From: Rhodoferax ferrireducens T118
Lineage (GTDB): Bacteria > Pseudomonadota > Gammaproteobacteria > Burkholderiales > Burkholderiaceae_C
DNA: 64,000 nt
NCBI RefSeq assembly: GCF_000013605.1
Contig: NC_007908.1
Coordinates: forward strand, 682,001-746,000
Reading direction: 5' to 3'
The position numbers and the translations under genes are program-made. The notes under the pieces were generated by a model. The model ran no database searches, was not told the origin of the DNA, and saw only the letters and a program-made list of their open reading frames with translations. Below, piece after piece: positions 2,103 to 45,401 of this stretch (position 1 is the first letter of the stretch; each line of letters begins with the position of its first letter).

Positions 2103-2109
2103 ACCAACT

Positions 2110-4637: not shown

Positions 4638-4640
4638 TCC

Positions 4641-7812: not shown

Positions 7813-7819
7813 GCAGCCC

Positions 7820-8857: not shown

Positions 8858-8864
8858 ATTCATC

Positions 8865-10570: not shown

Positions 10571-10611
10571 CGGACAAAAAAATTTGGTTTTCTTTAATAA
10601 ATGAATGTCAT

Positions 10612-10616
10612 GGAGG
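10612..10616 (+). promoter_or_regulatory. Shine-Dalgarno that fixes the start of the TviB-like gene
   Basis: A perfect GGAGG lies 7 bases before the ATG at 10624. It supports that start over the in-frame TTG at 10567, which overlaps the xrtA stop. The surrounding 50 bases are AT-rich compared with the neighbours. Confidence 0.8.
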
Positions 10617-10623
10617 TTTCAAA

Positions 10624-13083: not shown

Positions 13084-13088
13084 ACATC

Positions 13089-16228: not shown

Positions 16229-16237
16229 GGTCTTATC

Positions 16238-20687: not shown

Positions 20688-21745
20688 ACGGGAACCAGTC
20701 GTCGGGACTTGCATTGCGGTGGCGCCGTGGCGCCTGGCTCAGCCTCGCGGTGCTTGTTCTTTGCGTGTTGTCGCTTGCGCCGTACCTGACCAGTTCGACC
20801 GAGCTTGTGCGTATGCGCAACGCGCTGGTTTTGATCGACGAAAGCAGCACCGGGTTCGATTGGACCCCTCTCAATGTACCACCCAGCTACGTGCAAGAGC
20901 GCGGGCCTGTTGACCCGTTTTTTGTTGACGTGGCGGCTCGCCTTGGGTTGGCTGCGCTGCCTGACGACTGGGCGCGCGCCTTGGCCATCAGTCGTCATCT
21001 GTTGGGCAGCAGTCCGGTGTTGCAGGGGGGTGCAATCAAGTTAGACCTGCGCGGCACTTACCGGCGCATTGTTAGAAGCGGGCAAGGCTATTGTGGCGAT
21101 TTTGTGGATGTGTTCATGGCCATCGCCCTAGCCGCGGGCATGCCCGTGCGGTCCTGGGCATTCTCTTTTGACGGGTTTGGAGGTGATGGGCATATTTGGC
21201 CCGAAATATGGAATCGGCAACTGGGGCGATGGCAATTGGTCGGTATTTTCAATAATTACTACTTTTTCGAAACTCCCGGGGTGCCTCTGTCCGCTCTGGA
21301 ATTCCGTCAGGCAATGCTTAGCGATTCACCGCGACTCAAGCTGGCGCCGCTTGATCCGGGTGCCAGGGTTGGCTGGTCTATTGAAGAAGAAGCTTGGCGC
21401 TATTACCGTCGCGGGTTACCCGAGTGGTACATGTGGTGGGGCAATAATGTGTTTACCTACGACCGGGCCTTGTTGGTTCGCACCTTCTCCGGCGTCTCGC
21501 GCTCACTCGAGCAGTTGGGGGGCATTGCGCAAGGGGTATTCCCGCCGGTGAAACTGATGGTCACCGAGGCCAACCGCCACCAGGCCAATGCGATGTGGCG
21601 TCTGCGCATGCATCTTTTCGTTGTTGTGTGGGTGGCATCTCTGGCGACGCTCGCAGCCTTATTTTGTTCGATTGCGGCGGTGCGAGTCCGGCGTCGCCAG
21701 CACTTTGTTTTGTCCAGGCCCAGCGCGGTACAAGATGGTCAATAG
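20678..21745 (+). CDS. Membrane transglutaminase-like protein of unknown role
   Basis: This 355-residue protein has an N-terminal membrane anchor (about 18-36) and a second hydrophobic helix near 306-330, so the central domain should lie in the periplasm. The centre has a transglutaminase/papain-like core: GQGYCGDFVDVFMAIA with candidate nucleophile Cys139, then GGDGHIWPEIW with candidate His172. The third position, where relatives usually have Asp after the next strand, reads WQLVGIFNNYYF, so the Asp appears to be Gly189. It may be a peptidase, amidase or acyl-transfer enzyme, or a catalytically altered relative. It overlaps the AlgD-like gene by 10 bases and the next glycosyltransferase by 11, so it is tightly built into the EPS operon. 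Confidence 0.75.
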   Translation: MLVDGNQSSGLALRWRRGAWLSLAVLVLCVLSLAPYLTSSTELVRMRNALVLIDESSTGFDWTPLNVPPSYVQERGPVDPFFVDVAARLGLAALPDDWARALAISRHLLGSSPVLQGGAIKLDLRGTYRRIVRSGQGYCGDFVDVFMAIALAAGMPVRSWAFSFDGFGGDGHIWPEIWNRQLGRWQLVGIFNNYYFFETPGVPLSALEFRQAMLSDSPRLKLAPLDPGARVGWSIEEEAWRYYRRGLPEWYMWWGNNVFTYDRALLVRTFSGVSRSLEQLGGIAQGVFPPVKLMVTEANRHQANAMWRLRMHLFVVVWVASLATLAALFCSIAAVRVRRRQHFVLSRPSAVQDGQ

Positions 21746-22865
21746 CGCAACATGCAAATTGGAAGCTTTTGCAGCGAACCGGTTGCCGCGTGTTGGCCTG
21801 GTCGGTCCTTTGCCGCCACCTTCGGGCGGCATGGCCAATCAATGCCAGCAACTTATCCTGTTGCTCCAGTCGGAAGGTGTGGACGTTGAATTCGTACGAA
21901 CGAACAGTCCGTATCAACCGTATTGGGTGGGTCGCATTCCCATGGTGCGCGCTGTCTTTCGCCTGGTTCCGTATCTGGCGCATTTGTGGCGGACTGCCGG
22001 GCGGGTGAATGTGATGCACATCCTGGCCAACTCCGGGTGGGCCTGGCATCTCTTTGCGGCGCCGGCGATGATTGTTGCGCGCCTGCGGGCGACGCCGGTT
22101 ATCGTCAATTACCGGGGTGGGAATGCGGATCCCTTTTTTGCAAAGGCCCCCAAGTATGTCCTGAGAATGCTTGCGAAGGCATCCATGCGCGTGACACCTT
22201 CGGTATTTCTGCAGAGAGTTTTTGCCAATCACCGCTTGAGTGCCGATGTCATCTCAAACATTATTGACCTGTCACGTTTTACGCCGACGCGGCCCAGAGC
22301 ATTTGGCAATTCGCCGCATATTGTTGTCACCCGAAATCTGGAGCCCATCTACGACATCCCGACCGCAGTCCGTGCCTTTGCGGTCGTTAAAAAATCGTTC
22401 TCGGGGGCTACATTGACGATTGCTGGCAGTGGTCCCGAGCTTGCCAACCTGAAGGCGTTGGTGTTGAAACTTCAGCTGGCGGATGACGTGCAATTTTCAG
22501 GTCGCATTGACAACGCCTGCATTCCAGCCTTGTATGCGTCGGCTGACTGCATGATCAATTCAAGTACGGTCGACAACATGCCCATCTCGATCCTTGAAGC
22601 CTTCGCCAGTGGTGTGCCAGTGGTTAGTACCTGTGCCGGCGGCATTCCGGATCTGGTCGAGCACGGTGTCTCCGGCTTATTGGTGCCAATCGGCGACGAT
22701 CAAGCCATGGCCCGGGAAGTGCTCCGTGTCTTTCTGAACCCCACTATGGCCGCGAGTCTGCGGCAGGCTGGTTTGGTCGAGGCAGAGAAGTATGCTTGGC
22801 CGCAGGTACGCGCCAAGTGGCTGGATGCCTATATCCGGTCTGCTACGCCAGGGAGGGCGCCATGA
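21735..22865 (+). CDS. Glycosyltransferase, GT4 type
   Basis: This 376-residue enzyme has an N-terminal acceptor half (VGLVGPLPPPSGGMANQC) and a C-terminal donor half with VVTRNLEPIYDIPTAV, IAGSGPEL, VQFSGRID and INSSTVDNMPISILEAFASG, the standard GT4 E-x7-E region. The ATG at 21735 lies inside the end of the previous gene (ATGGTCAATAG arrangement); the frame is open further upstream but that part is antisense-like noise inside the transglutaminase gene. It overlaps the following adenylating enzyme by four bases. Donor and acceptor are unknown. Confidence 0.87.
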   Translation: MVNSATCKLEAFAANRLPRVGLVGPLPPPSGGMANQCQQLILLLQSEGVDVEFVRTNSPYQPYWVGRIPMVRAVFRLVPYLAHLWRTAGRVNVMHILANSGWAWHLFAAPAMIVARLRATPVIVNYRGGNADPFFAKAPKYVLRMLAKASMRVTPSVFLQRVFANHRLSADVISNIIDLSRFTPTRPRAFGNSPHIVVTRNLEPIYDIPTAVRAFAVVKKSFSGATLTIAGSGPELANLKALVLKLQLADDVQFSGRIDNACIPALYASADCMINSSTVDNMPISILEAFASGVPVVSTCAGGIPDLVEHGVSGLLVPIGDDQAMAREVLRVFLNPTMAASLRQAGLVEAEKYAWPQVRAKWLDAYIRSATPGRAP

Positions 22866-24241
22866 GTCTCTATACCGCACTGTGTTCGAACTTTTTTTTC
22901 CCGCTCCACGAACGCCTCAAAGGCCATGACTCCGTGGCACTGCGAAAACACCTGGAAGAAAGTCAGTGGTGGCCCGCTGAACAACTCGAGACTTACCGTG
23001 CCAAGAGATTGCAGCAGTTCCTGGTCGATATCGGACAGCGTGTGCCCTACTACCAACAGTTGTTCAAACAACTCAATTTCGTCCCGAACACGGTCCGCTC
23101 GACCGCCGCATTGCAACTGTTGCCATTGCTCGCCAAATCAGACATCCGGAAAAACGTCGACAAGCTGAAGGCCGAAGGCCATGGCCCATTGACACGTTAC
23201 AACACCGGTGGCTCTTCCGGAGAACCCCTCATCTTTTACATGGGCAAGGGACGCAAAAGCCACGACGTTGCTGCCAAATGGCGCGCCACCCGCTGGTGGG
23301 GCGTTGATATTGGCGACCCTGAACTGGTCGTGTGGGGTAGCCCGATGGAGATTGGTGCACAAGACCGCGTCAGGCGCCTGCGTGATGCGCTGCTGCGAAG
23401 TCGCTTGTTGCCGGCTTTCGAAATGTCGCCTCAAAATTTGGACCGGTTTGTGGAGACGATCCGCGTTACTCGTCCTACTATGCTGTTTGGCTATCCATCG
23501 AGTCTTTCTCTCATTGCACAGCACGCGCGGCACAAAAGCGTTGCCATGAATAGTCTGGGGATCAAGGTTGCATTCGTCACCTCCGAGAAGCTCTATGAAG
23601 AGCAACGAGCCATCATCAGTGAGGTATTTGCTTGCCCGGTGGCTAACGGCTATGGCGCGCGCGACGCAGGGTTCATCGCACACCAGTGCCCTGAGGGTAG
23701 TTTGCATATCAGCGCCGAAGACATCATTGTGGAAACAGTGCGCCCAGACGGCTCTCCTGCGGCCGCAGGCGAGGCTGGCGAAATTGTCGTCACACACATG
23801 GCAACGGTGGACTTTCCTTTCGTGCGCTATCGCACCGGTGATATTGGGGTCTTGGACGATAAGCCATGCGCGTGTGGCCGTGGCTTGCCCGTGCTGAAAG
23901 AAGTGCAGGGGCGCACGACCGACTTCGTCGTCGCGCGAGACGGTACGATCATGCACGGTCTGGCATTGATCTACACAGTGCGGGATCTGCCGGGCGTTGA
24001 ACGTTTCAAAATTGAGCAGTTGTCGCTGGATCAAACAATCGTCAAGGTCGTGGCTGGGCCAGCCTTTGGCGCAGCAGCAGAAGCGCGCATCATCCGCGAC
24101 TTCAAAGCCCGGCTGGGTGAAGCCGTTGATATCCGCGTCGAAAGGGTGCGTGATATTGCCAATGAATCCTCAGGCAAGTTTCGCTATGTTGTGAGTCAGG
24201 TCAGGGTTTTTGGGAATGGCAAGGAGGTCAAAAGTGCGTGA
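22862..24241 (+). CDS. Phenylacetate-CoA ligase-like (PaaK/CapK) adenylating enzyme
   Basis: This 459-residue protein belongs to the PaaK/CapK branch of adenylate-forming enzymes that is frequent in capsule and EPS loci. The phosphate-binding motif is YNTGGSSGEPL (about 113-123). The nucleotide motif appears as NGYGARDAGFIAHQC, and FVRYRTGDIG contains the adenine-contact Asp. A CACGRGLP segment with two Cys lies just before the C-terminal subdomain, as in PaaK relatives. It should activate a carboxylic acid as an adenylate or CoA ester; in EPS loci the acid is generally unknown. It starts with the ATGA overlap and its end overlaps the next gene by 8 bases. Confidence 0.85.
   Translation: MSLYTALCSNFFFPLHERLKGHDSVALRKHLEESQWWPAEQLETYRAKRLQQFLVDIGQRVPYYQQLFKQLNFVPNTVRSTAALQLLPLLAKSDIRKNVDKLKAEGHGPLTRYNTGGSSGEPLIFYMGKGRKSHDVAAKWRATRWWGVDIGDPELVVWGSPMEIGAQDRVRRLRDALLRSRLLPAFEMSPQNLDRFVETIRVTRPTMLFGYPSSLSLIAQHARHKSVAMNSLGIKVAFVTSEKLYEEQRAIISEVFACPVANGYGARDAGFIAHQCPEGSLHISAEDIIVETVRPDGSPAAAGEAGEIVVTHMATVDFPFVRYRTGDIGVLDDKPCACGRGLPVLKEVQGRTTDFVVARDGTIMHGLALIYTVRDLPGVERFKIEQLSLDQTIVKVVAGPAFGAAAEARIIRDFKARLGEAVDIRVERVRDIANESSGKFRYVVSQVRVFGNGKEVKSA
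24221..24227 (+). promoter_or_regulatory. Shine-Dalgarno that fixes the GTG start of the O-ligase-like gene
   Basis: AAGGAGG lies 6 bases before the GTG at 24234, inside the end of the PaaK-like gene. It supports GTG 24234, which also gives the family-typical N-terminus (RDLLMLGIVLGALPFALR). Confidence 0.8.
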
Positions 24242-25544
24242 TTTACTGATGCTCGGTATCGTTCTTGGTGCTTTGCCATTTGCGCTGCGGCACACCTGGA
24301 TCGGCATTTTGTTGTGGACCTGGATCAGCATCATGAATCCCCACAAGCTGACGTGGGGACTTGCCTACGACGCGCCTTGGGCGGCGATTGCGGCTGGTGT
24401 CACGATTCTTTCGTTGCTCATCACACGCGACAAACTGAGTATGCCTTGGGAGCCGCCAGTTAAGGTCTTGTTTGCGTTTGTCATCTGGATGTGCGTGACA
24501 ACAGCATTCGCCTTCTACCCCTTGATCTCATGGGAGCAGCTCAACAAGGTCTTGAAGATACAGTTGATGACGGCCATTGCATTTGCGGCTTTGCGCGAGC
24601 GAAAGCACATCGAACTTTTTCTTTGGGTGAACGTTCTTTCAATTGGTTTCTATGGTCTCAAAGGTGGTCTTTTCACCCTCAGGGGTGGTGGCGTGGAACG
24701 GGTATGGGGGCCGCCGGGTGGTTTTATTGAAGGGAACAACGAACTCGCCGTGGCGCTTGTGATGGCGATCCCACTGATGAATTATTTGAGGATAGTTGCA
24801 ACGCGTCCATGGATTCGCCACGGGTTGCTGACGCTGATGCTCCTGTCCGCCGTTTCGGTCTTGGGATCACAGTCAAGGGGCGCGCTGCTGGCTGTTTCCG
24901 CGATGGGCCTGGTTTTATGGGTGCGATCCGAACGAAAGGTGGTGACTGGCTTCTGGTTTGGCGTCATTGCTCTGGGCTTGCTTGCCTTGATGCCCGGCTC
25001 GTGGGAACAACGCATGAACACGATTGGAAGCTATGAGCAGGACCACTCCGCGATGGGGCGAATTGAGGCCTGGAAGATGACAATCAACTTGGCCAATCGT
25101 CATGTTTTCGGTGGAGGTTTCGAAATTTACAGGCCTGACATCTACGCCATATTCGCGCCCGATTCTCAGCAGCAGCAAGGGGCCCACAGTATTTACTTTT
25201 CGGTGCTTGGCGAGCATGGCTATGTTGGCTTGCTTCTGTTTTTCGTGATATGGGTGCTGGCATTTCGAACGGCCTGGAAAATCAGGCAGGACGCGAAACA
25301 GCGGGCAGAGACACTATGGCTGCATCACCTGGCCGGTATGTGCCAAGTGTCACTCGTTGGCTATTTGGTTGGGGGCGCATTTTTGGCGCTGGCCTACTTT
25401 GACCTTCCCTACAACATTCTCGTCGTGCTGGTAGTTTCTTTGCGCTGGCTACAGGAAAAAAGATGGGAGAGCGAACCACAAGGTGCTTTTGGTGCCGCAA
25501 CGACGTCGAGTCCCATTCCGATGATCATCCCGAAAAGGGCATGA
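24234..25544 (+). CDS. Putative O-glycosylation ligase / Wzy-like protein, exosortase A-associated
   Basis: This 436-residue polytopic membrane protein of the O-antigen ligase/polymerase superfamily matches the exosortase A-associated ligase family (TIGR03097-like). It starts RDLLMLGIVLGALPF and soon shows WTWISIMNPHKLTWG, both diagnostic. About ten hydrophobic helices are visible. The large periplasmic loop follows the GSQSRGALLA helix end and contains AHSIYFSVLGEHGYVGLLLF, a Wzy_C-like signature. It is expected to polymerise EPS repeat units or transfer glycan to PEP-CTERM proteins; which of these cannot be told here. A second ligase-like gene lies at 55931. It overlaps the next gene by four bases. 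Confidence 0.9.
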   Translation: MRDLLMLGIVLGALPFALRHTWIGILLWTWISIMNPHKLTWGLAYDAPWAAIAAGVTILSLLITRDKLSMPWEPPVKVLFAFVIWMCVTTAFAFYPLISWEQLNKVLKIQLMTAIAFAALRERKHIELFLWVNVLSIGFYGLKGGLFTLRGGGVERVWGPPGGFIEGNNELAVALVMAIPLMNYLRIVATRPWIRHGLLTLMLLSAVSVLGSQSRGALLAVSAMGLVLWVRSERKVVTGFWFGVIALGLLALMPGSWEQRMNTIGSYEQDHSAMGRIEAWKMTINLANRHVFGGGFEIYRPDIYAIFAPDSQQQQGAHSIYFSVLGEHGYVGLLLFFVIWVLAFRTAWKIRQDAKQRAETLWLHHLAGMCQVSLVGYLVGGAFLALAYFDLPYNILVVLVVSLRWLQEKRWESEPQGAFGAATTSSPIPMIIPKRA

Positions 25545-26509
25545 CAATGGCTTTGAAAGGTGCGTTTGGCATGTTATCTCCCGGCGGACCGCGAGGCCGC
25601 CTGTCCATTTTTATTTTTCATCGGGTGCTGTCGCAAAAAGACCCGCTGTTTCCCGATGAGCCTGATGCCCGTCGCTTCGACGAAATTCTGGGTTGGCTGA
25701 GCAAATGGTTCCAAGTCCTTCCGCTTGACAAGGCGGTCATGCAGCTTCGCGCCGGTACGCTGCCCGCGCGTTCTGCCGCCATCACCTTTGATGATGGTTA
25801 TGCAGATAACGCCACCAACGCAATGCCGATACTGAAGCGACATGGTCTGTCGGCCACCTTCTTTGTGGCCACCTCCTTCATGGATGGCGGACGGATGTGG
25901 AATGACACGCTCATAGAGGCGATACGAAAATGTCAAAACGACTCGCTTGATTTGAGCGACGCCGGCTTCGGGCACTTCAAGCTGACGTCTGTCGCAGACA
26001 GACGCCTTGCCATTGAGTCCTTGCTGGGGCGCATCAAGTACCTCGCGCACGACCAGCGCAGTCAGGCGGTAGCGCAGGTGCAGCGAGCCGTGCCGATTGC
26101 TTTGCCTGACGACTTGATGATGACATCCGGACAAGTCATTCAGTTGCGCGACGCAGGTATGCAAGTGGGTGCGCACACTTGCTCCCATCCCATTCTGGCG
26201 AACTTGACAGACAGTGAGGCCATGGCAGAGATAACGGACAGCAAGATGGCGCTTGAATCATTGTTAAATGAGCCGGTTTCCTTGTTCGCTTACCCCAACG
26301 GCAAACCGGGCACGGACTACTGTGGAAAACACGCTGCAATGGTTCGCCAAGCCGGGTTTGCCGCAGCGGTATCGACTGCGTCGGGCGTGTCATCAGCGGT
26401 GACTGATCCCTTTCAGTTGCCACGCTTCACGCCGTGGGACCGTACGCAGCTGCGGTATGGCATCCGGTTGATGCTCAACCTGCGTGCAGCCGCGCCGCAG
26501 GTGGCGTAG
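25541..26509 (+). CDS. Polysaccharide deacetylase family protein (second)
   Basis: This 322-residue NodB-fold protein is distinct from the XrtA deacetylase at 6937. It contains IFIFHRVLSQKDPLFPDEPD near the N-terminus, the metal and base motif AAITFDDGYADNATNA, then HGLSATFFVATSFMDGG and GAHTCSHPILANL. The C-terminal PYPNGKP-type motif reads FAYPNGKPG. The N-terminus lacks a clear signal peptide, so a cytoplasmic or membrane-associated action is possible. The ATG at 25541 overlaps the upstream stop (ATGA); an in-frame ATG two codons later is an alternative. Relatives occur in many EPS loci; substrate unknown. Confidence 0.88.
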   Translation: MTMALKGAFGMLSPGGPRGRLSIFIFHRVLSQKDPLFPDEPDARRFDEILGWLSKWFQVLPLDKAVMQLRAGTLPARSAAITFDDGYADNATNAMPILKRHGLSATFFVATSFMDGGRMWNDTLIEAIRKCQNDSLDLSDAGFGHFKLTSVADRRLAIESLLGRIKYLAHDQRSQAVAQVQRAVPIALPDDLMMTSGQVIQLRDAGMQVGAHTCSHPILANLTDSEAMAEITDSKMALESLLNEPVSLFAYPNGKPGTDYCGKHAAMVRQAGFAAAVSTASGVSSAVTDPFQLPRFTPWDRTQLRYGIRLMLNLRAAAPQVA

Positions 26510-26568: not shown

Positions 26569-28053
26569 GTGTTGAATAAACCAGGTTACGCGCTGGTCTT
26601 GGCCGGCTGTCTTGCGTGTGCTTCAGTGGTTGTCGCGATGCCCGACTCGTTTCTTCTCGGTGACGGAGCGGCCGGGCCGACCTGTGCGAACTACGTGACC
26701 ATGGGAGGTATGGCATGGAGTCGTGCTGGCGGTGACTGGGTTGATGCAGCGGGGACTTTGTACGGCGACCAAGCTTTTTCCACTCACTCGGTGCCGCTGG
26801 GCAAAGGGCGGCAGATCGAAGACTGGGATGTGACCGAACTGGTACGGGCTTGGCTTGACGGGCGCTATCCCAACGCCGGTATGTTGTTGCGGGTCAAGCC
26901 GGGAGTCAAGAACGGCGTGGTGGATTTCCACAGCCGAGAGTCGCCAGATGCAAGCGCTCGTCCCGTTCTCAAGCTGCAATGGTCGGACGGCTCGCAGACC
27001 AGACTGTCACCGGCTGCAGATACCTATCTTGACTGCACCTCGCTGTCCAGTTTGGGTGAAAAGCCCAGTATAAAAATCAGTGGCTTGCAAAGTGCGCTGT
27101 TGCGATTTGACCTGAAGAAAACAAATGCACGCTTGCAGCAGGCTGTTCTCACCCTTGTCTCTGACATGCAGTACGCGAGTGGCACCGACATTGGGGTCTA
27201 CCGCGCAGCCCCGCCCTATACGCGGATGCCAGCCAATACTTTGACGGGCCTGGCGAAGGACTACGCTCGAGATATGGGCATTGAAAAGAACCCTGATGTC
27301 GTGTTTGCAACCGGCTTCGAAAGCCCGGTCTGGCTCACCGAGTGGGGTTATTTCGGTCCGCGAAGTACAGCCGAGGCGATTGCCGAAGACGCTGCCAGAC
27401 GATTCGAGCCGTTTTCTGGGCGGGCATTGCGCGTTCGACTGGTTAAAGGTCAGAACCTCGGCCTCGATTTGCGCTACCTGTTTGCCAAAGGAGGCAAGCC
27501 TGAACCAGAGGAAATCTATTTCCGCTACTACCTGCGGTTCGCCGATGACTGGAACCCGTACGCTGACGGTGGCAAGATGCCTGGCATTGCCGGAACCTAT
27601 GACCGCGCCGGCTGGGGCATGCGCAAGTCGGACGGTTACAACGGTTGGTCGGTTCGTGGCGGTTTTGCGCCCCGACCACCTGTGGACAAGTCTGTAGCTC
27701 GCCTGACTGCCATGGGTTCGTACTCGTATCACGCCGATACGGGTGAGTCCGGAGACTACTGGGGCTGGAATGAAGGTCCGTCAGGCCTGCTGGAAAACAA
27801 TCGCTGGTATTCCGTGGAGCAGTACGTCAAGCTCAATACGCCCGGCGTGCGCGACGGTGTATTTCGGGCCTGGATTGACGGTCGGCAGGTGCTGGAAAAA
27901 ACAACAATTCTGTTTCGCCATACGCGCGACTTGAAGATTGAGAATGTCTGGATGAATATCTACCATGGAGGTACGACGCCCGCGCCACAGGATATGACGC
28001 TGTACATTGACAACGTGGTGATTGCCCGACGCTACATTGGCCCGGTCAAATGA
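26569..28053 (+). CDS. Exported DNRLRE/CBM96-type and PL14-like polysaccharide lyase
   Basis: This 494-residue protein has a signal sequence of about 23 residues. It contains LAGC at residues 12-15, which could be a lipobox, or it may be cut after VVA. Residues about 25-170 resemble a DNRLRE/CBM96 module (DWDVTELVRAWLDGRYPNAG, then FHSRESPDASARPVLKL), followed by a shorter second module starting SPAADTYLD. The C-terminal half, about 255-494, resembles polysaccharide lyase family 14 alginate-lyase-like proteins (EIYFRYYLRFADDW, GGKMPGIAGT, NGWSVRGG, YSVEQYVKLNTPGVRDG). It may cut the uronate-containing EPS made by this locus, for release or trimming. Family call rests on motif memory, not on a search. 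Confidence 0.75.
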   Translation: MLNKPGYALVLAGCLACASVVVAMPDSFLLGDGAAGPTCANYVTMGGMAWSRAGGDWVDAAGTLYGDQAFSTHSVPLGKGRQIEDWDVTELVRAWLDGRYPNAGMLLRVKPGVKNGVVDFHSRESPDASARPVLKLQWSDGSQTRLSPAADTYLDCTSLSSLGEKPSIKISGLQSALLRFDLKKTNARLQQAVLTLVSDMQYASGTDIGVYRAAPPYTRMPANTLTGLAKDYARDMGIEKNPDVVFATGFESPVWLTEWGYFGPRSTAEAIAEDAARRFEPFSGRALRVRLVKGQNLGLDLRYLFAKGGKPEPEEIYFRYYLRFADDWNPYADGGKMPGIAGTYDRAGWGMRKSDGYNGWSVRGGFAPRPPVDKSVARLTAMGSYSYHADTGESGDYWGWNEGPSGLLENNRWYSVEQYVKLNTPGVRDGVFRAWIDGRQVLEKTTILFRHTRDLKIENVWMNIYHGGTTPAPQDMTLYIDNVVIARRYIGPVK

Positions 28054-28083
28054 TGGGCGGTACGTCCGTAAGAGATCGTTTGC

Positions 28084-30351
28084 GTGGAAATTATTCATAG
28101 CCCGCGCAAGGCGCCCGACGTTACAGCAGTCCTTATGCGCGACAGAATTCTCTATTACTGCTGGAGATTGGCACTCCCCTTCGCTGTCGTTGCTGCCGTG
28201 TGGATACCTCATTTCTCGCACTATCGGATTGATCGCAGTCCAGTTTCTTGGGAGGCGGCACAAGCCTCCGCACAAGCACCAACTCCAGCTGTTTTGGACG
28301 AGATATCCGGCCAGGCACTGGGTGCGCGGTTCGGCATACCAGACGAAAAAATCCTCGGGATCGCCGAGCAGATATTGGTGGGCACCCTCGCCGTACCCAG
28401 CTTCCTGGAAGCGCCCATGGCCCTGCAAGGGTATCCAATAGACTATCAACGTGGGTCATCATCCCTCCAACTTGTCATGGCCAGCCTGGAGGTTGAACGC
28501 GTCTTGCTCAGCGCCTTCGAGCAAACGCATGACCGGCGCTTTCTGGATTTGGCAACCCGTCGCGTCCTTGATTTCGCAGCGCATGAAGCAGGGCAAAGAC
28601 AGGGGGATGGGTTTCTGTGGAACGATCATGCGGTGGCCGGCAGAATCTCCGTTTTGGCGAAGCTGTGGCGCCTCGTGCGCGAGAGTCCTGAGCTCCCCAT
28701 TGCGTCGTCCCGTCAGATTCTTTCACTGGTTGAACGCAGCGGTCGTCTGCTGGCAAAGCCAACCCAATTCACCGTCAGAACCAATCATGGCGTGGCCCAA
28801 AATCTTGCACTTTTGCAGATTGCTGCTGCCTTCCCGGCACTGCCCGAATCCGGCGCGTGGCGCAGGCTCGCGGTACAAAGGCTGAATGTTCAACTGCCCT
28901 TTTATGTCTCGCGGGAAGGTGTCATTCTGGAACATTCCGCCAACTATCATTTGTTTGGAACTGAATTGCTGACCATGGCGGTCCGACTCAGTGTTCTCAA
29001 CGGCCTGAAGCCCGAGCCAGCGCTTGTTGATGCGGCCCGTACTTCGCGTCAGGTGCTTGCCCGCCTGATGCGACCGGATGGAACCTTGCCAGTTCTCGGC
29101 AATACCGTTGCCGGAGGTGGTAGCGCAATTCCGATAGCCGACAGCGGCGGAACCGGTCCCATTCAACATCAGTGGCCACCGCATCCCAACCCCGTGACTG
29201 GAAGCAACTTGTTTCCGGTGGCAGGTTATGCGATCTGGTGGCAAGCCAATGAATCGAAGCAGCTTTCCCAGACCCTCATTGCCTGGGCCAAACACGATGG
29301 GCACGGTCACAAGCACGCCGATGAAGGATCGGTGCTTTTCTGGTCTGGCGGTGTCGACTGGCTCACCAATACGGGCTACTGGCCCTATGGTGCGCGCAAT
29401 GAGGAAGCGGCCTACTCCTGGACCGGCTCCAATGCGCCCCATCAGCCAGGTGAAGAATTTCTTGTTCCTCGTTCTGTTCAACTCCTGAAAACCGGCGAGG
29501 CGTCCGGCGTTAGCTTCATTGAAGTTGAGCGGCGCAATACGGATGGTGCGCAGTTTCGACGTCAGGTTTTACAAATTGATGCGCAGACCTTGTTGGTGCT
29601 GGATTTCGCCCAGGGGGTTCCAAAGGGCATTGAAACAATCTGGACAGTTGACCCCACACTTCGCTTGTCACCTGGTGCAACAGCCAGCAATTTCATCAGT
29701 ACCCCCGTGCCTGATGGTCGGCATCTGATGATCAGCTACACCAACCACACCGCGGTCAGGGTTCAAATTCGTCGTGGTTCTGAGCGTCCATTTGCGGGCT
29801 GGGTGGTTGTTGATGGCAGGCCAACGCAGGCCGATGCTCTGCAAATTGTTGACCCCGCAAGCAATTCGGCGAGTGCCATTCTGTTTCGGGTTGCGTCAGG
29901 CTCAATGGACGCCGCACAAAAAATCTCGATTGAAACGGGGGCGACGGCAGATCACTGGGCCGTCTTGGTGGAGGGTGCTGGGGAACTCAAACGTGTAAGC
30001 CGACAAGACACGACTATCACGATGGGTCATGTGGCAAATTCAACGAATCCGGCCGATTCACTGCTTGTGCCTTTGCGGCCTGCGCCAGACGTTGCTGTCG
30101 AGCGTGCAGCGCTGACGCGCGCCTATGCGAACGCCGTCAAAACCTATCCCCCTTGGCGGGAGCTGACGCGCTACAGGTTGCGCTTGTCTTATGCGCTGGC
30201 TATCCTTGCCCTTCTTGTGGAGTTGGGGTGTTTTGCCATTTCAAAACTGGCAGGCGTCGTAACCAGGCGGCAATTTTTCTACGCCCACCTGGGTATGACC
30301 TTGTGCTGGGCGGCTATTGCGGTGTGGATAGTCCAGTTCTATTTGCGGTGA
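28084..30351 (+). CDS. Membrane-anchored heparinase II/III-like protein
   Basis: This 755-residue protein has an N-terminal membrane helix and two hydrophobic helices near the C-terminus (about 692-715 and 728-750), so the large central part should face the periplasm. The alpha/alpha toroid region shows NHGVAQNLALLQIA and ILEHSANYHLFGTELL. The beta-sandwich part begins at HGHKHADEGSVLFWSGG, the His-rich motif of heparinase II/III and alginate-lyase relatives, and continues with WLTNTGYW. It could be a lyase acting on nascent EPS in the periplasm, like AlgL in alginate loci (inference). Start uncertain: GTG 28084 has a weak AAGAGA upstream, while ATG 28135 would put the membrane helix at the very N-terminus; neither has a good ribosome site. 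Confidence 0.8.
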   Translation: MEIIHSPRKAPDVTAVLMRDRILYYCWRLALPFAVVAAVWIPHFSHYRIDRSPVSWEAAQASAQAPTPAVLDEISGQALGARFGIPDEKILGIAEQILVGTLAVPSFLEAPMALQGYPIDYQRGSSSLQLVMASLEVERVLLSAFEQTHDRRFLDLATRRVLDFAAHEAGQRQGDGFLWNDHAVAGRISVLAKLWRLVRESPELPIASSRQILSLVERSGRLLAKPTQFTVRTNHGVAQNLALLQIAAAFPALPESGAWRRLAVQRLNVQLPFYVSREGVILEHSANYHLFGTELLTMAVRLSVLNGLKPEPALVDAARTSRQVLARLMRPDGTLPVLGNTVAGGGSAIPIADSGGTGPIQHQWPPHPNPVTGSNLFPVAGYAIWWQANESKQLSQTLIAWAKHDGHGHKHADEGSVLFWSGGVDWLTNTGYWPYGARNEEAAYSWTGSNAPHQPGEEFLVPRSVQLLKTGEASGVSFIEVERRNTDGAQFRRQVLQIDAQTLLVLDFAQGVPKGIETIWTVDPTLRLSPGATASNFISTPVPDGRHLMISYTNHTAVRVQIRRGSERPFAGWVVVDGRPTQADALQIVDPASNSASAILFRVASGSMDAAQKISIETGATADHWAVLVEGAGELKRVSRQDTTITMGHVANSTNPADSLLVPLRPAPDVAVERAALTRAYANAVKTYPPWRELTRYRLRLSYALAILALLVELGCFAISKLAGVVTRRQFFYAHLGMTLCWAAIAVWIVQFYLR

Positions 30352-30411
30352 CAGTTGTCTTCGGTTTGTCGCCTGCGTTGGCCCTAAATGCTACTAACCA
30401 GGAACTCTAAA

Positions 30412-31737
30412 ATGCGCGAAGTCACAGAGTGTTGCCACCAACCTGAACCGTCAACCACGAACCGGACATTGCCCAACCGGAGGCGGTTCCTGCAGTCTGC
30501 CGCGACGGGTGCAGGTTCCATGGCACTGTGGGCCGGTGTTGGCAGCGCTTCTGATGCCGCCGTGGCCGCGCCGCCGCAGCCTCCTGGCTGGGTGCCCGCC
30601 AGCGGTGGCGCCGCCAAGGCAGTTGCAACCACGAATACCTTTCTTTCGCAGAATGGAAAACTCGTTGGCTGGGAGTACGCGTTCGGCAAGATCGTTGACG
30701 ACTACTCTGGTGGAGTCTTCAATCCGTACTGGGGGCCTTTGGGGGCGATGGTGTTCCATGGCGGGGGGCATGCGGCCACGTTTGACAACAGTGTTGTGAT
30801 TCTTGACTTCAACGACTTGACGTTCAAGCGCTTGTCGAACCCGACACCAAGTAACAAGGGTGCCAACTGGATTTCCACTGCCGGACTGTCTCAGAATGTC
30901 GACCCTGCGTTCAATTCGTATTGTGAGTATGGCGATGGCCAGCCAGGTGCGGGTCACACCTATGACACACTTGCCATATTGCCCCCCGCCGATGGCGGGG
31001 CTCCTTTTGGATCATTAATCCGTGTTTCCAGCTTTGCCGTTCATGTCAATTTGTCGCGCAGCACGGGCTGGGCCCATCGATTTGATTTCCAATCCATGGC
31101 GATGCGCAATGGCAAGTGGGTGCGCTGGTCGGTGAATGGGCCGACCAATTATTTGTTTCCGGGGGCCTGCTCCGCCTACGATTCGCGCCGCAAGCGGTTT
31201 TGGTGGATGGCTGCTCTGTCGTACCTCCCGCCGATGATCCGTTACCTTGACGTCGCAACACAACAGCAACTGGAAGCACCCTATGCGCGTACGGCACGAT
31301 TGGCCCCTGCGGCGGACTCAGGCAGCATGACCCTGCGTTACGACCCGGCGCGCGACATTCTTGTTCTGACATGCACCTTGGGCGGCAAACTGGTGCTCGC
31401 CTTTCTTCGTTGTGCATCACCTGAAATGGGTTGGGTGGTGCCTCCCTTGTCGGCGAGCATTCCAGCGCAACCCGGCGCATCACACCCGTTCGACTTTGTA
31501 CCCGAAGCAGACAAGTTTGTGTTGCTCACGGGTGCCGACAACTCGGCGCTCTATGACATCAAGGCGCCGCAGGATCCAACGCTCGTATGGACCGTGACAC
31601 GCCGACCACTGGTCGGTGTTGCTGTTCCGACCGCCCACATTGCCGGAAAGCGATGGAGCTACGCGCCGGCGGTCAAGTCGTTTGTCTGGATGGCGAGTAG
31701 TTCGTCCGGTGTCATCGCGTACCGTCCGTTCGTGTGA
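30412..31737 (+). CDS. Tat-exported kelch/propeller-like protein of unknown function
   Basis: This 441-residue protein has a twin-arginine signal: NRRRFLQSAATGAG at residues 22-35, followed by a hydrophobic stretch ending near AAPPQP. I do not recognise a named family. The mature part is rich in Gly, aromatic residues and short strands, and has propeller-like features (AMVFHGGGHAATFDNSVVILDF, then KRFWWMAALSYLPP). It looks homologous to the middle of the giant lipoprotein at 31954, with shared GGGHA and HTYD motifs. GGAA at 30401-30404 supports the ATG at 30412. Tat export suggests that it folds, perhaps with a cofactor, before secretion. A role in EPS binding is inferred from context only. 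Confidence 0.7.
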   Translation: MREVTECCHQPEPSTTNRTLPNRRRFLQSAATGAGSMALWAGVGSASDAAVAAPPQPPGWVPASGGAAKAVATTNTFLSQNGKLVGWEYAFGKIVDDYSGGVFNPYWGPLGAMVFHGGGHAATFDNSVVILDFNDLTFKRLSNPTPSNKGANWISTAGLSQNVDPAFNSYCEYGDGQPGAGHTYDTLAILPPADGGAPFGSLIRVSSFAVHVNLSRSTGWAHRFDFQSMAMRNGKWVRWSVNGPTNYLFPGACSAYDSRRKRFWWMAALSYLPPMIRYLDVATQQQLEAPYARTARLAPAADSGSMTLRYDPARDILVLTCTLGGKLVLAFLRCASPEMGWVVPPLSASIPAQPGASHPFDFVPEADKFVLLTGADNSALYDIKAPQDPTLVWTVTRRPLVGVAVPTAHIAGKRWSYAPAVKSFVWMASSSSGVIAYRPFV

Positions 31738-31953
31738 ACGTCCACCGGCGCAAATTTTCCGCGTCGCCCCGTCGGAAAAATTGACAGATCAGCTGCAGCG
31801 CGCAGGTCCAACATCGCTAACCCATTGTTTCAATTGGCTCCGGGATAGTGCGCACGAAAATTGCGTACTGCGTGATGGTCCACCACAAAACGACCATCGC
31901 TCATGAATCAGTCCTCCCCAATGTCTTCGTGTTGTCAGGCTGCATTTCAAAAA

Positions 31954-34900
31954 ATGAGGTGCATAGGCTATTGGCTTACGCTTGCAGCGTTGGCTGGTTT
32001 GCCGGCCTGCGGTGGAGGCACCGATACCCCAGATAAGTCTTCATCGGCTCCGTCCAGCCTGCAGCAGACTCTGGTCAATTTGGTGATTGACACGACAAGC
32101 CCGGGACTCGTGACCGAGGGCAGTTTTGATCAGGTGCCCGGCTACTTGGCAAAGAGCCCGCAGGTCTTGCGCAGCAATGGTGCAGCGGGCGCGCGCTTTG
32201 CGTTGCAGGTGCCGCAGGCAGGTCAGTATGAAGTGTTCGTCTGGTGGCCGCAGAATCTGGCGGATGCCGGTATTGCAGATATCACGGTCGAATACCACGG
32301 CGGCAAAAACACAATTTCCCGGAGCCAGCGCAGCGGTGGCGGCTCATGGCAATCGGTTGGCACATATCCGTTTGATCCGTCGATTCCCGGGGCTGTGGTG
32401 CTGCGGAACGCAAGCGGTGCGCCCTTGTACGTGGATGCAACGCGCCTGCAATACGTCGGGCGACTGGCCCCCGTTATGGTGTTTGCGTTCGACAAGTTGC
32501 CGGTCGGCCTGAAGGATGAGCCGTATACCGCGCAACTCGGTATGGCGGGTGGTATGCCGCCTTACAGCTATGCGATTGTGGATGGCGACTTACCTCCGGG
32601 TTTGGCACTGGATGGGGCCACTGGCGACATCACCGGCCGCCCGGCGCAGGCGGGCGAGTTCACCTTCACCGTGCGCTCGCAGGATGCCACGCGTCAGTTG
32701 GCGTCACAGACGATGACCCTCTACATCGGAGAGTCGGCGGGCACCGCCAGTACTGTGCAGGGTTTGTTCCCACGTCCGCTTGAGGTCCCCAGTGCGCGCC
32801 GCCAATCGGCTGTCACGCCGTCCGGCGCGCCGGACGTTTCCAACTTGCTCGCCATTGTGGCCGGCATGGCCGAAGGGGAATGGCGTCGGGTCAACCTGAA
32901 CGCTTTCTCATCCGTCTGGACCCCCGCCGACCTGCGCCCTTTGTTGTCCAAAAGCAACCCTGATCCCTCCCGCCTGATTCTCGCGTGGAGCAGTTTTGCC
33001 TGGGATTCCAACCGTGCTGCGCTGCTACTTTATGGTGGCGGCCATGCCAATTACCGTGGCAACGATGTCTACTTGTGGCGCGCCAGCACACAGAGGTGGG
33101 AGCGTGCATCGCTCCCAAGCGAGATGGTCCAAACCCCTCTGGGCTACTGGAATGCGATTGACGGTGTCGACAAAGCGCCGGCGTCCGCTCACACTTATGA
33201 CAACACCATCTTCCTTCCGATTCTGGATCGCATGCTGGTGCTGGGCGGCGCCGCCGACCCCAATGGCGGACCTTACATTACCCAGGACACCGCAACAACA
33301 GCGCGCATCACCGGGCCCTACCTTTTTGACCCAAGCCGCGCGAACGCCGACAGGGTAGGCGGCAGCACCGGGTCGCATGTGAAACGCGTGGCACCGTACC
33401 CCGAAATTGTGGGCGGCAATATGTGGTCAAACCGCGAGTCGTGGCTGAATGCGTCGGCGTCATCAGCACCTCCTGTCGAAACCCTGTCCGACGGGTGCAC
33501 AGGCTATGCCGTGGAGGACGGCCGTGATGTGGTCTATTTGCGCACGGCCAGCCGCCTGTACCGCTATGAAATAAACGACTTGGCCAATCCCGCCGCCGAT
33601 GTCTGGAAGCAGGTCAATAGGTATTACTACGGCGGCTCCGGTGGACAGAGCACCTGCGGCTACGACCCGCTGCGCAAGATATTCCTGTCGACGCATCTGA
33701 AGACGCCATTCATCTTTTGGGACCTGTCAAATTCCAATCCGGGCAACCTGGACAAAATGATCACACCTGTCGACCCAACTGGCGAATTTCCGACACTGCT
33801 GTCAAGCGGTGAGATCCAGATGCGCAATTGTGGTCTGGAGTTTGACCCCGTTCGCAAAGATTTCAAGCTCTGGTGTGGTGATGGTCGCGTCTGGGCCGTG
33901 ACGCCACCGCCAACGCCGGTTGCCACGGGCTGGACTATTGTCAAGGCTTCATTGCCGCCAAGCGCAGTGCCGACCGAAAGTCTTGGCACCGGCATTTTGG
34001 GCAAATGGAAGTACGTGCCAAACCTGGATGTCTTCATGGGCCTGGCCGATGCGGTGCAGGGCAATATCTGGGTTTATAAGCCGCACGGCTGGGTGAACCC
34101 CGCCGGAGGCAGCAACCTGCCACCGTCAGTGTCGATCACCGCACCCGTTAATGGCGCAAGCGTCACAGTGGGGGCGAGCATCGCGGTGTCGGCCACTGCG
34201 ACTGACGTCGACGGCAGTGTTGCCAAGGTCGAGTTCTTCGCCGACAGCTACAAGATCGGTGAAAGTCTGGCCGCGCCCTACGGCATGGTGTGGTCTGGCG
34301 CCACAGTGGGCGCGCATACGCTCACGGCAGTGGCCACCGACGATGCGGGGGGCACCAAGACCTCGGCCGAGGTTACAGTCACGGTGACTCCGGTGGCCCC
34401 GCTCAACAATCCTCCTACCGTCAACCTTGTACGCCCCACCCCTGGCGCCATCTTTCCTTTTGGCACGCCGGTCACCCTTGAAGCTTCGGCCGCAGACAGC
34501 GACGGCGCCGTGATACGCGTCGAGTTTTACGCCAACGCCATCAAACTGGGTGAATCTACCGTCGCGCCGTTCACGCTGGTGTGGGCCTCGCCCCCCTTGG
34601 GCACCAGTGCACTCTACGCAGTTGCCACCGACGATCAAGGCGCCAGCGCCACCTCGGTGGTGGTGTCCATGACCGTCTCGCCTGCCTCGGGCGGCGCTGG
34701 GTCGATCACCCTGCAACGCGGCGCGAGTCCGTTCACCGTCGCCGACACCTATCTGTCTGCGTATCACTCGACGTTGAACTTCGGAGCAGCGAGCAATCTC
34801 CGGGATCAGTTCAGCAACTACTCGTCGCTGATGCGCTTTGCGATCTTCCAGTCTGAAGGCGGCCCTGTTCCGAACGGCACGAACATTACCTCAGCGACCT

Positions 34901-35274
34901 TGTCGTTGTACAAGTACTCGTCTTACAACATGGTTTATTCCGTGCACCGCGTGTTGTTGGACTGGTCGGAGAGCAGCGCCACCTGGAATCTGCGCCAGCC
35001 GGGGCTGGCCTGGTCCACAGTAGGTGCCAACGGTCTGGGTACGGATATTTCTGCTACGCCGGATGCTTCTGCATCTACAGACTTCAACCCGGGTTGGATC
35101 AACTTCGACGTGACTGCAAGCGTGCAGGCAATGAGCCTGGCCCCGACGCTTGCCAACTACGGCTGGCGTCTCAAGGGCGTGAGTGGCTACACCAGCGGGC
35201 TCAAGTGGATCTACTCAAGTGAATTCTCTGGCACGCCGACACTGCGCCCGAAACTGGTAATCACCTACAACTGA
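31954..35274 (+). CDS. Giant multidomain surface lipoprotein (golvesin-like, Ig, propeller, DNRLRE)
   Basis: This 1106-residue protein has a lipoprotein signal (LAALAGLPAC, lipid-bearing Cys at 19, then GGG). Domains in order: a golvesin/xyloglucanase-like beta domain (about 43-170, VFVWWPQN, WQSVGTYPFD); a putative Ig domain (about 175-260, LPPGLALDGATGDITGRP); a long propeller-like region (about 265-715) resembling the preceding gene product (LLLYGGGHANYRGNDVYLW); two Ig-like repeats (starting about 722 and 819, both with VEFFAD/VEFYAN and IGES/LGES motifs); and a DNRLRE/CBM96-type C-terminal module (about 917-1106, ADTYLSAYHSTLNFG). It is probably a surface-anchored EPS-binding or matrix protein. 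ATG 31954 is chosen for its compact signal peptide; in-frame ATGs at 31903 and 31921 are alternatives and none has a clear ribosome site. Confidence 0.75.
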   Translation: MRCIGYWLTLAALAGLPACGGGTDTPDKSSSAPSSLQQTLVNLVIDTTSPGLVTEGSFDQVPGYLAKSPQVLRSNGAAGARFALQVPQAGQYEVFVWWPQNLADAGIADITVEYHGGKNTISRSQRSGGGSWQSVGTYPFDPSIPGAVVLRNASGAPLYVDATRLQYVGRLAPVMVFAFDKLPVGLKDEPYTAQLGMAGGMPPYSYAIVDGDLPPGLALDGATGDITGRPAQAGEFTFTVRSQDATRQLASQTMTLYIGESAGTASTVQGLFPRPLEVPSARRQSAVTPSGAPDVSNLLAIVAGMAEGEWRRVNLNAFSSVWTPADLRPLLSKSNPDPSRLILAWSSFAWDSNRAALLLYGGGHANYRGNDVYLWRASTQRWERASLPSEMVQTPLGYWNAIDGVDKAPASAHTYDNTIFLPILDRMLVLGGAADPNGGPYITQDTATTARITGPYLFDPSRANADRVGGSTGSHVKRVAPYPEIVGGNMWSNRESWLNASASSAPPVETLSDGCTGYAVEDGRDVVYLRTASRLYRYEINDLANPAADVWKQVNRYYYGGSGGQSTCGYDPLRKIFLSTHLKTPFIFWDLSNSNPGNLDKMITPVDPTGEFPTLLSSGEIQMRNCGLEFDPVRKDFKLWCGDGRVWAVTPPPTPVATGWTIVKASLPPSAVPTESLGTGILGKWKYVPNLDVFMGLADAVQGNIWVYKPHGWVNPAGGSNLPPSVSITAPVNGASVTVGASIAVSATATDVDGSVAKVEFFADSYKIGESLAAPYGMVWSGATVGAHTLTAVATDDAGGTKTSAEVTVTVTPVAPLNNPPTVNLVRPTPGAIFPFGTPVTLEASAADSDGAVIRVEFYANAIKLGESTVAPFTLVWASPPLGTSALYAVATDDQGASATSVVVSMTVSPASGGAGSITLQRGASPFTVADTYLSAYHSTLNFGAASNLRDQFSNYSSLMRFAIFQSEGGPVPNGTNITSATLSLYKYSSYNMVYSVHRVLLDWSESSATWNLRQPGLAWSTVGANGLGTDISATPDASASTDFNPGWINFDVTASVQAMSLAPTLANYGWRLKGVSGYTSGLKWIYSSEFSGTPTLRPKLVITYN

Positions 35275-35400: not shown

Positions 35401-37074
35401 TCAATCGGCAAGGCTGAACTGCGGCGCCTTGGTCGCAAGCCACTGCTCCAGCATCATCAGGATCCACACCATCTCGCCAAAGTAGCCCGGGTGCTCGGGC
35501 AGGTGTTGCGTCAGCAGGGTCTGGACAAAATCGGCGCGCACCACGCCGCGGCGCGCCAAGCTGTGCAGCGAGTCGGTAGCCAGCGCCTTGAGGGCCGGGT
35601 CGGTGTTGGCCCATACGCCAAACGGCAAGCCGAAGCCCTGCTTCTTCTTGGTGATGATCTCGTCGGGCAGAAAGCCGCGCAGCGCCTCCTTGAAGAACCA
35701 GCGCAGTTGCAGGCCCTTGAGCTTGTACGCGGTTGGCAGCCTGAGCGAAAACGCCAGCAGCCGCTCGTCGAGCATAGGAAAACCTACGCCCACCCCGGCA
35801 CAGCCGGTAGCGCCCAGCACTTTGGGCAAGTCACTCTCGGCGAGGGTAAAGCGCCAGTCATAGGCCAGCTCTCTATTCAAATGGCTGCAGTTCTGTGGCA
35901 TCTGCCATACCGCGCGCTCCAGTTGCAGCGGCGCTACGGTGTCAATTTGTGCCATGAGTTGTGGCGTTAGCACGTCGTCGGCACCCAGTCGCATGATCAG
36001 GTTGTACATCTGCAGTCGGTCGGGCATGGGCGCGCGAGCCTGCTCCACGTAGCTGCCAGCCTTGCGGGTCAGGGCGAAGGTCGCCGCGGCACGGGTGCCC
36101 AGCAGCGGTTCCATCAGACCTCTTTGAAGGAAGCCTGGAACATGGTTGTACCAGCCAAACACCCGCTGCTTGGCATAGCGGGAGTTGCCGCCAAACAGTT
36201 CATCGCCGCCATCGCCAGCCAGCAACTTGGTCACGCCGTCTTCACGCGCCATCCTGGCGCAGTAGTAGGCGGGCAGGGCAGACGAATTGCCAAAGGGCTG
36301 GTCGTAATGGGCTGCCACCGCCGGGATGCTGCGCACCAGGTCATCGGGCGTGACATAGTACTCATGGTGCTCGGTCTTGAAGTGTCTGGACGCGAGACGG
36401 GCATATTCCATCTCGTCATAGCCCTGCGCGTCAAAGCCAATCGAATAAGTGGCCGCCACCCTGCCGCTGGCCAGGGCAATCATGCCGGCCACCGTGGAGC
36501 TGTCGGTGCCACCGCTCAAAAAGCAGGCTGGTTTGCTGCCGTCGAGCTGGGTCGCGACCGAGTCCTGCAGCAGCTGCCTGAACTCGTCCTTGAGCGCGTC
36601 AAACGAGGGGCTGCGTTGCTCTGCAAAGCTGGGCACCCAATACGGTGCGACCTTGAGCTGGCCGTTTTCAAACAGCGCATAGTGCGCCGGCGGTAACCTG
36701 TAAATGCCTTTGTAGATCGTGCGTGGCGACGGGATGACGTGAAAGTAAAGGTAATCAAAAATCGCCTGCGGGTCAATCTCGGCACTGGCGTCAGCCAATT
36801 CATCGGCGCGCGCGGCAAAGCGCAGTTGCCCGTTGTCCACCCTGTAGCACAGGGTGCAGATGGAAAAGCGGTCCACCGCCAGAAAGGTGCCGCCATCGGG
36901 CAAACGTAGCCCCACGGCAAATTCGCCAGAAGTCCCCAGAGCGGCGTCAGGGCCATTTTTAGCAATTGCCTCGCGCCAGGCCGCTACGGCGCCGGCGGTC
37001 CGCGCCAATTCGGTCAAGCGTGTATCTGCGAATTTGGGGGAGCCGGAGGCAAATGAAATATCGGTTGCAGCCAT
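35401..37074 (-). CDS. Third asparagine synthase-like protein, lacking the N-terminal Cys
   Basis: This 557-residue protein has a complete synthase domain with the PP-loop CFLSGGTDSSTVAGM and LAGDGGDELFGGNSRYAKQ, but the N-terminal Ntn domain does not begin with MCG. From the chosen start it reads MAATDISFASGSPKF, and no Cys lies near the N-terminus. It therefore probably cannot hydrolyse glutamine and would use ammonia, a partner glutaminase or another nucleophile. The DRFSICTLCYRV and IFDYLYFHVIPSPRTIYKGI segments mark it as a separate branch seen in EPS loci. The frame is open to 37149, but the ATG at 37074 fits the family N-terminus better. It is the last gene of the minus-strand side here, convergent with the giant lipoprotein gene. 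Confidence 0.82.
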   Translation of the reverse strand: MAATDISFASGSPKFADTRLTELARTAGAVAAWREAIAKNGPDAALGTSGEFAVGLRLPDGGTFLAVDRFSICTLCYRVDNGQLRFAARADELADASAEIDPQAIFDYLYFHVIPSPRTIYKGIYRLPPAHYALFENGQLKVAPYWVPSFAEQRSPSFDALKDEFRQLLQDSVATQLDGSKPACFLSGGTDSSTVAGMIALASGRVAATYSIGFDAQGYDEMEYARLASRHFKTEHHEYYVTPDDLVRSIPAVAAHYDQPFGNSSALPAYYCARMAREDGVTKLLAGDGGDELFGGNSRYAKQRVFGWYNHVPGFLQRGLMEPLLGTRAAATFALTRKAGSYVEQARAPMPDRLQMYNLIMRLGADDVLTPQLMAQIDTVAPLQLERAVWQMPQNCSHLNRELAYDWRFTLAESDLPKVLGATGCAGVGVGFPMLDERLLAFSLRLPTAYKLKGLQLRWFFKEALRGFLPDEIITKKKQGFGLPFGVWANTDPALKALATDSLHSLARRGVVRADFVQTLLTQHLPEHPGYFGEMVWILMMLEQWLATKAPQFSLAD

Positions 37075-37325
37075 TTGAGGGTGACAGTTGATCGTGGTCA
37101 GCGAGATTCGCTGTTCTTTGTGTTGTCTATCGATTATGCGCAACTGCATCCGGTTTCACGGTGCGCCGAATATGAGAATCATCAAGAACAGGCGAACAAA
37201 TTGTCAACTTGCGCAATCAGTCGCCTCGGTTGTCTCGAATTCGCTGGGCACTTGATCTTTCGCATTTATGATTGCGATCACATCCAAGCGGGCGAGCCAG
37301 CACCGCAACAACGACCGGAATCCAC
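37075..37325. promoter_or_regulatory. Divergent intergenic region, probable promoters
   Basis: This 251-base stretch separates the divergent third amidotransferase and a glycosyltransferase, so it should hold promoters for both. It is less GC-rich than its surroundings. A TTGACA occurs on the minus strand at 37207-37202, but no convincing -10 box lies at the right distance, and no good -24/-12 match was found. No gene is supported here. Confidence 0.45.
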
Positions 37326-41699: not shown

Positions 41700-41712
41700 T
41701 TGTGACGCTGCC

Positions 41713-42690: not shown

Positions 42691-42758
42691 AACCGTGCCT
42701 CTGTTTGTTTGAACAACATTCCCCTACCTGTATGTGGAGCCTGAAGTGCACCAGCGCC

Positions 42759-44452: not shown

Positions 44453-44456
44453 TGCT

Positions 44457-45398: not shown

Positions 45399-45401
45399 AG
45401 T

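Follow-up and report, generated by a model that had tools for sequence, protein, structure and literature searches.

The four consecutive genes P1 to P4, found where an XrtA/PEP-CTERM exopolysaccharide (EPS) locus ends, are accessory genes and not part of the conserved XrtA core. They occupy a variable slot between the genes for a polysaccharide deacetylase and a convergently encoded amidotransferase, a new point of this analysis. With moderate confidence, we read the set as an optional cassette for processing and retaining the polymer made by the locus itself. XrtA/PEP-CTERM systems occur in floc-forming and other environmental bacteria, and to our knowledge neither their polymer nor its processing is understood. 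Lyases of the slot with intact active-site residues are potential tools to open this polymer. Positions below refer to the window, the whole 64,000-nucleotide stretch of DNA that was analyzed.

528..25544, plus strand: XrtA/PEP-CTERM exopolysaccharide locus, by profile matches
8936-10570, plus strand: XrtA gene (349 bits against a cut-off of 208)
25463..26509, plus strand: Deac25, polysaccharide deacetylase (PF01522), left border of the variable slot
26569..28053, plus strand: P1, 494 aa, predicted exported DNRLRE/Disaggr_repeat protein with a PL14-type polysaccharide lyase domain
28084..30351, plus strand: P2, heparinase II/III-like (PL12-type) lyase with membrane-anchor-like stretches
30388..31737, plus strand: P3, 449 aa, kelch-like beta-propeller with a twin-arginine motif
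31903..35274, plus strand: P4, 1123 aa (or 1106 from 31954), lipoprotein-like and multidomain
35401..37149, minus strand: AsnS35, asparagine-synthase-like amidotransferase (PF00733), convergent, right border of the variable slot

Genomic setting of the four genes

The first 26.5 kb of the window hold the XrtA/PEP-CTERM locus, and P1 to P4 come next in order. The locus encodes a chain-length protein, a tyrosine kinase, a TIGR03016 protein, an ATPase, WecB, a deacetylase, FemAB and XrtA, together with two nucleotide-sugar dehydrogenases, TIGR03088, TIGR04063 and TIGR03087 glycosyltransferases, amidotransferases, an acyl ligase-like protein and a TIGR03097 ligase/polymerase; the Deac25 gene sits after the TIGR03097 gene. 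TIGR03007, TIGR03018, TIGR03016, TIGR03015, TIGR03006, TIGR03019, TIGR03088, TIGR03108, TIGR04063, TIGR03087 and TIGR03097 all scored over their own cut-offs. We assigned the locus type on the joint presence of XrtA, TIGR03007, TIGR03015, TIGR03019, TIGR03097, TIGR03108 and PEP-CTERM proteins in the genome, which measures 4.97 Mb and has 14 PEP-CTERM matches over cut-off.

The original prediction described four consecutive co-directional ORFs at 26569-35274, and this layout holds: all four are open and lie on the same strand as the upstream XrtA genes. In the coordinates that we queried, the gaps Deac25-P1, P1-P2, P2-P3 and P3-P4 are 59, 69, 36 and 165 bases; the 30- and 216-base gaps and the 1106 residues given originally match starts at 28084 and 31954, and differ by start choice only. 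The gene 3' of P4, AsnS35, is on the opposite strand and convergent. Promoter-like sites (8, against 4.2 in shuffles, sd 2.1) and terminator-like sites (16, against 14.8, sd 3.6) were not counted as evidence. A recent foreign origin of the cassette was considered and rejected: there is no break in base composition (G+C of 0.569-0.606 for P1 to P4, 0.578 for the window), and the direct repeats within the region amount to one 16-nt pair at 94%.

Three asparagine-synthase-like amidotransferases lie in or beside this one EPS locus (13089-15014, 16238-18163 and 35401-37149). The two nucleotide-sugar dehydrogenase genes are our sole indication that the polymer may contain uronates; taken with the three amidotransferases, they suggest amidated uronates, which, if present, could alter the susceptibility of the polymer to lyases. 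Beyond the cassette, a minus-strand polysaccharide block at 38615-46910 encodes an acyltransferase-SGNH protein, glycosyltransferases, DegT, FdtA/WxcM and a flippase. A minus-strand ORF at 49710-50561, about 14 kb from the cassette, is likely an exosortase substrate, as a PEP-CTERM match (C2:731722-731790, one of 14 genome-wide) lies in it.

Slot content and linkage to XrtA

We sampled the slot by its Deac25 anchor, which is blind to P1 to P4. Deac25 had matches at 1e-30 in 45 of 170 genomes of the family and 20 of 89 genomes of the genus, and slots were read in the 46 genomes whose match exceeded about 290 bits (the slot of G475 was read from locus L002, whose Deac25 coordinates match). AsnS35 closes the slot in 36 of the 46, convergently in 34 and in the same direction in G377 and G393. 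The other 10, at contig or stretch ends or unreadable, stand outside the count (G444, G433, G291, G318, G288, G406, G387, G287, G300 and G254). Eleven of the 36 slots hold no ORF of 150 aa, with borders 3-421 bases apart (G448, G449, G468, G500, G438, G314, G262, G388, G269, G284 and G332), and eight hold a relative of P1, P2 or P4. All four genes are present in the window genome (G000) and in G475; a single relative is found in G325 (P1) and G393 (P2), P2 with two distant P1 relatives in G377, distant P1 relatives in G459 and G260 (230 and 107 bits), and an ORF related to P4 chiefly via Ig domains in G357. The remaining 17 slots contain other ORFs, some perhaps spurious.

The four genes had been proposed to form a module, and a search for their order in other genomes had been suggested. 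We found the full set outside the window in one genome only, a Rhodoferax MAG (L002/G475), with partial sets or none elsewhere in the 36 slots read. What stands of the module is that P1, P2 and the P4 propeller are XrtA-linked in part of the genomes; its composition is not fixed. Among named genomes, L003 (Aquabacterium MAG) carries P1 and P2, L010 (Paucibacter) P1 and P4, and L007 and L016 P1. In 16 XrtA stretches of the same genus, selected by position and several of them shortened by contig ends, no homologue of P1 to P4 was found. We also assigned Pfam families to 78 slot ORFs that window proteins did not recognize at 150 bits, from 26 loci, three of which lie outside the 36-slot sample. 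Among the families listed (25 of 58) were at least eight acyltransferases, at least five flippases and at least three DegT aminotransferases, a content that suggests a general role of the slot as carrier of polysaccharide-tailoring genes. Natural variants permit comparison: within one genus the slot can be empty or full, and related genera have P1 alone, P1+P2 or P1+P4. In two loci (L011:9794-18022 and L013:4677-13056), a TIGR03097-like gene is inverted in the slot beside P1, and beyond AsnS35 lies another P1 relative, a distant one, accompanied by a propeller.

To place the set relative to XrtA, we used 250 genomes of the same order, the window's genome included and kinship uncorrected, 60 of which have XrtA over cut-off. 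The P1 profile matches in nine, over 250 bits and near full length in four (G000, G112, G021 and G016); all four have XrtA over cut-off, on the same contig and within 21 kb in two. P2 matches in seven genomes and at full length in three, each with XrtA within 25 kb. For P3, with matches in 3 of the 250 order genomes and 7 of 170 family genomes, we claim no linkage. The P4 propeller matches in nine genomes, five of them weakly (E 1e-16 to 4e-4), all nine among the 60 with XrtA; the distance is within 25 kb in five and 244 kb in G015, and in three the two are on other contigs. This leaves two of the four P1 genomes and four of the nine P4-propeller genomes unlinked to XrtA on the contig. Because near full-length P1 and full-length P2 occur in so few genomes (4 and 3 of 250, against 60 with XrtA), the set lies outside the conserved XrtA core, as originally predicted. 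In the literature within reach, which left out most subscription journals, we found no description of polysaccharide lyases as parts of XrtA loci. The gene set, its slot and the lyase-propeller pairing described below are novel as far as our searches show.

Relatives of P1 occur across several phyla. We analyzed the loci of the best 80 of 141 relatives in named genomes, and XrtA-locus proteins lie near the P1 relative in 27. The other 53 lack an XrtA marker within the retrieved DNA, which in 14 of the 80 loci spans less than 12 kb. Loci counted as marked if they had a 100-bit match to XrtA or to a TIGR03097-type protein, or three or more of a set of 16 proteins from the window locus, a set that includes widespread families. 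Both the 53 unmarked loci and the spread over phyla favor scavenging, in which P1 and P2 would degrade foreign uronate polymers, algal or bacterial, for food and would sit beside an EPS locus by chance or through shared regulation. TonB receptors, which match 5 of 105 P1-neighbor ORFs, suggest scavenging in some lineages, and hence a lyase family not limited to self-processing. The window itself argues otherwise: among the ORFs scanned in its first 55 kb, none encodes a transporter, a TonB receptor or an enzyme of unsaturated-uronate catabolism. So does the linkage of P2 to XrtA in all three genomes with a full-length match. We therefore regard scavenging as unlikely for this set and prefer processing of the locus's own polymer. 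Because of the 53 unmarked loci, we infer that substrate and do not count it as observed; the compartments and the division of labor are inferred too. Two loci (L042:6944-10274 and L054:8026-11383) have a P1 relative in the vicinity of EPS-locus genes and, upstream, an ORF that may be a TonB receptor.

Two predicted lyases with retained active-site residues

The original prediction characterized P1 as a DNRLRE protein with a PL14-like lyase domain, P2 as a heparinase II/III-like membrane protein, P3 as a Tat propeller and P4 as a multidomain lipoprotein, and called for a Pfam search. That search returned lyase-family matches over cut-off for P1 and P2, and the four descriptions agree with our analysis. 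All four were called "exported"; P2 is probably anchored in the membrane on its periplasmic side instead of released.

P1 starts at a GTG with AGGAGG 8 nt upstream, and a hydrophobic stretch at residues 5-23 predicts an N-terminal signal, either type I or lipoprotein. Its lyase domain matches PF21294 at 58.1 bits (cut-off 27), and Disaggr_repeat and DNRLRE are also over cut-off. Among solved structures, the P1 profile found the alginate lyases 6kzk, 6kcw, 6kcv and 5gmt (41.5 to 31.7 bits). K336 and Y385 align with Lys 91 and Tyr 133 of the 6kcw chain (positions counted by hand); the distance of 42 equals that between K143 and Y185 of Aly36B, so that K336/Y385 correspond to the active-site Lys/Tyr of PL14/PL36-type lyases. 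The 6kcv chain shows Ala where Tyr pairs with Y385. In the text available to us, K143 and Y185 are named as the mutant residues of 6kcv (PMC8145301), and a title cited in another paper gives Lys as both base and acid in Aly36B (PMC8618178). K336, S361, R363, Y385 and Y387 are invariant in all 29 aligned sequences (P1 and 28 homologues of 46-88% identity). P1 is thus predicted to be a lyase with retained active-site residues. Its catalytic domain matches those of Aly36B (PL36) and the PL14 alginate lyases, but P1 differs from them in its N-terminal DNRLRE domain, its place in an EPS locus and a top profile score of 41.5 bits to a solved relative.

For P2, which ends at 30351, the start is either GTG 28084 or ATG 28135; our query began at 28123, a position without a start codon, and P2 residues are numbered from there. 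Both Hepar_II_III domains are over cut-off (71.3 and 44.6 bits, against 24 and 22). N221, Y275 and H396 pair with 4mmi chain positions 216, 270 and 400 (counted by hand), which an offset of 24 converts to N240/Y294/H424 of heparinase III, the Asn-Tyr-His residues listed for 4MMH in the available text of PMC12088678. The triad is invariant in 29 of 29 aligned rows, and we predict P2 to be a lyase as well. While it shares the aligned triad with heparinase III (PL12; 4MMH, 5JMD), P2 has membrane-anchor-like stretches, and its best score to that enzyme is 56.3 bits, which places it in a separate subfamily; against the heparan sulfate lyase HepC (NF045573), it scores 36.8 bits where the equivalog cut-off is 700. 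Transmembrane-like stretches at 686-704 and 723-741, a third at 77-95, N-terminal to a Hepar_II_III_N match that begins at residue 131, and an N-terminus that is hydrophobic by eye make P2 probably membrane-anchored.

We propose the following scheme for processing and retention. P2, as a membrane-anchored periplasmic lyase, would cut chains that contain uronates while they are being made and so clear or size them, the role that AlgL has for alginate. P1 would be exported and, with its PL14-type lyase and DNRLRE domains, trim the polymer once it is complete. The propeller proteins would bind the polymer or the ends left by cleavage, P4 as a surface lipoprotein with domains of sugar-binding type and P3 after export by the Tat pathway. 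Domains of the DNRLRE, Golvesin_C and Ig types are binding or spacer kinds, and their presence in the set could also mean that the lyases have lost catalysis and serve as binding proteins for EPS retention; the invariance of the active-site-aligned residues in both lyases makes this very unlikely. That the cassette attacks the capsules of neighboring cells, as the varying slot content might suggest by its likeness to fast-changing surface loci, we find hardly credible, since the inferred anchoring of P2 better fits self-processing.

Lyases acting on a bacterium's own polysaccharide are already known in AlgL and RbmB. P2 is like AlgL in that its gene lies among the synthesis genes of a polymer, here a putative uronate polymer, and in its fold class, heparinase II/III lyases being of the alpha/alpha toroid class; it differs as a heparinase II/III (PL12-type) protein with membrane-anchor-like stretches, in an XrtA locus and with a different polymer. 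The role proposed for P1 resembles that of RbmB, which is of another lyase family and, unlike P1, not in an XrtA locus. In the portions of the sources available to us, AlgL is a periplasmic alginate lyase of alpha/alpha toroid fold encoded in the alginate operon (PMC8829089), RbmB of Vibrio cholerae cleaves the species' own matrix polysaccharide (PMC11637428), and EPS clusters often include a degrading enzyme, as stated for glycosyl hydrolases (PMC9075953). Two floc-formers offer a parallel as far as their available texts go, an Aquincola with a large EPS cluster and PEP-CTERM proteins (PMC9850573) and a Thauera whose EPS cluster has asparagine synthase and polysaccharide deacetylase genes (PMC4784049). 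The word lyase is absent from both main texts on these clusters, and the Thauera text mentions neither PEP-CTERM nor exosortase.

Kelch propellers and their pairing with P1-type lyases

P3 matched no Pfam family, yet by sequence comparison it is homologous to the middle of P4, and a kelch fold is predicted for both; some propeller relatives match the Kelch_3/Kelch_4 profiles. The twin-arginine motif in P3 and the P4 lipobox come from visual inspection, not from prediction software. P4 further contains Golvesin_C, He_PIG, Big_7 (two stretches) and CBM96/DNRLRE, all over cut-off. A propeller profile iterated within the ORFs of fetched loci gave 31 hits, two of which (L167 and L169) lack a His pair, and L014, a P1 locus with a propeller hit, was left out of the His-pair alignment. 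In the 28 aligned propellers, the invariant columns are two His and one Pro. The two His, H128 and H190 in P3 and H381 and H430 in P4 (numbered from the 31903 start), fall in GGGH and HTYD in both proteins, spaced 62 residues apart in P3 and 49 in P4, and because of their invariance they may be catalytic. The Kelch_3/Kelch_4 matches raised the question of a copper site in P3 like that of galactose oxidase; the latter is a Tyr/Cys/His set, and the invariant columns do not support such a site. The available text of PMC8377490 describes PL24/PL25 and FoRham1 as seven-bladed propellers with an Arg neutralizer and two His separated by about 20 residues; the P3/P4 spacing is wider, and those families are not among the 50 matches listed.

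A propeller ORF is present in 15 of the 80 P1 loci and adjoins the P1 relative in 11, where 3.1 are expected from random placement among the genes of the stretch, a crude expectation that counts related genomes apart. L014 is outside this count as its ORFs overlap, and the argument does not apply directly to the window and L002, where P2 lies between P1 and P3. Kelch was the commonest Pfam family among the 105 P1-neighbor ORFs (six), with TonB receptors a close second; this set omits 2 of 107 ORFs, and ORFs recognized by window proteins at 150 bits had been excluded earlier. This pairing is seen both at XrtA loci (L010, L017 and L020) and where the stretch has no XrtA marker (L031, L040 and L044).

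The pairing, together with two invariant His in an otherwise diverged fold, makes these propellers a candidate new carbohydrate-active family. We think it possible, if doubtful, that the P3/P4 propellers are enzymes beyond mere binding proteins, forming a two-gene unit with the PL14-type lyase in several phyla. Some XrtA loci would have taken up this unit in their slot, where genes for polysaccharide processing are exchanged, and would use it to cleave or modify the polymer they make. In one genome (G256, L117:10164-13894), a distant P1 relative adjoins a P3 relative about 1.4 Mb from the Deac25 match, apart from the EPS locus.
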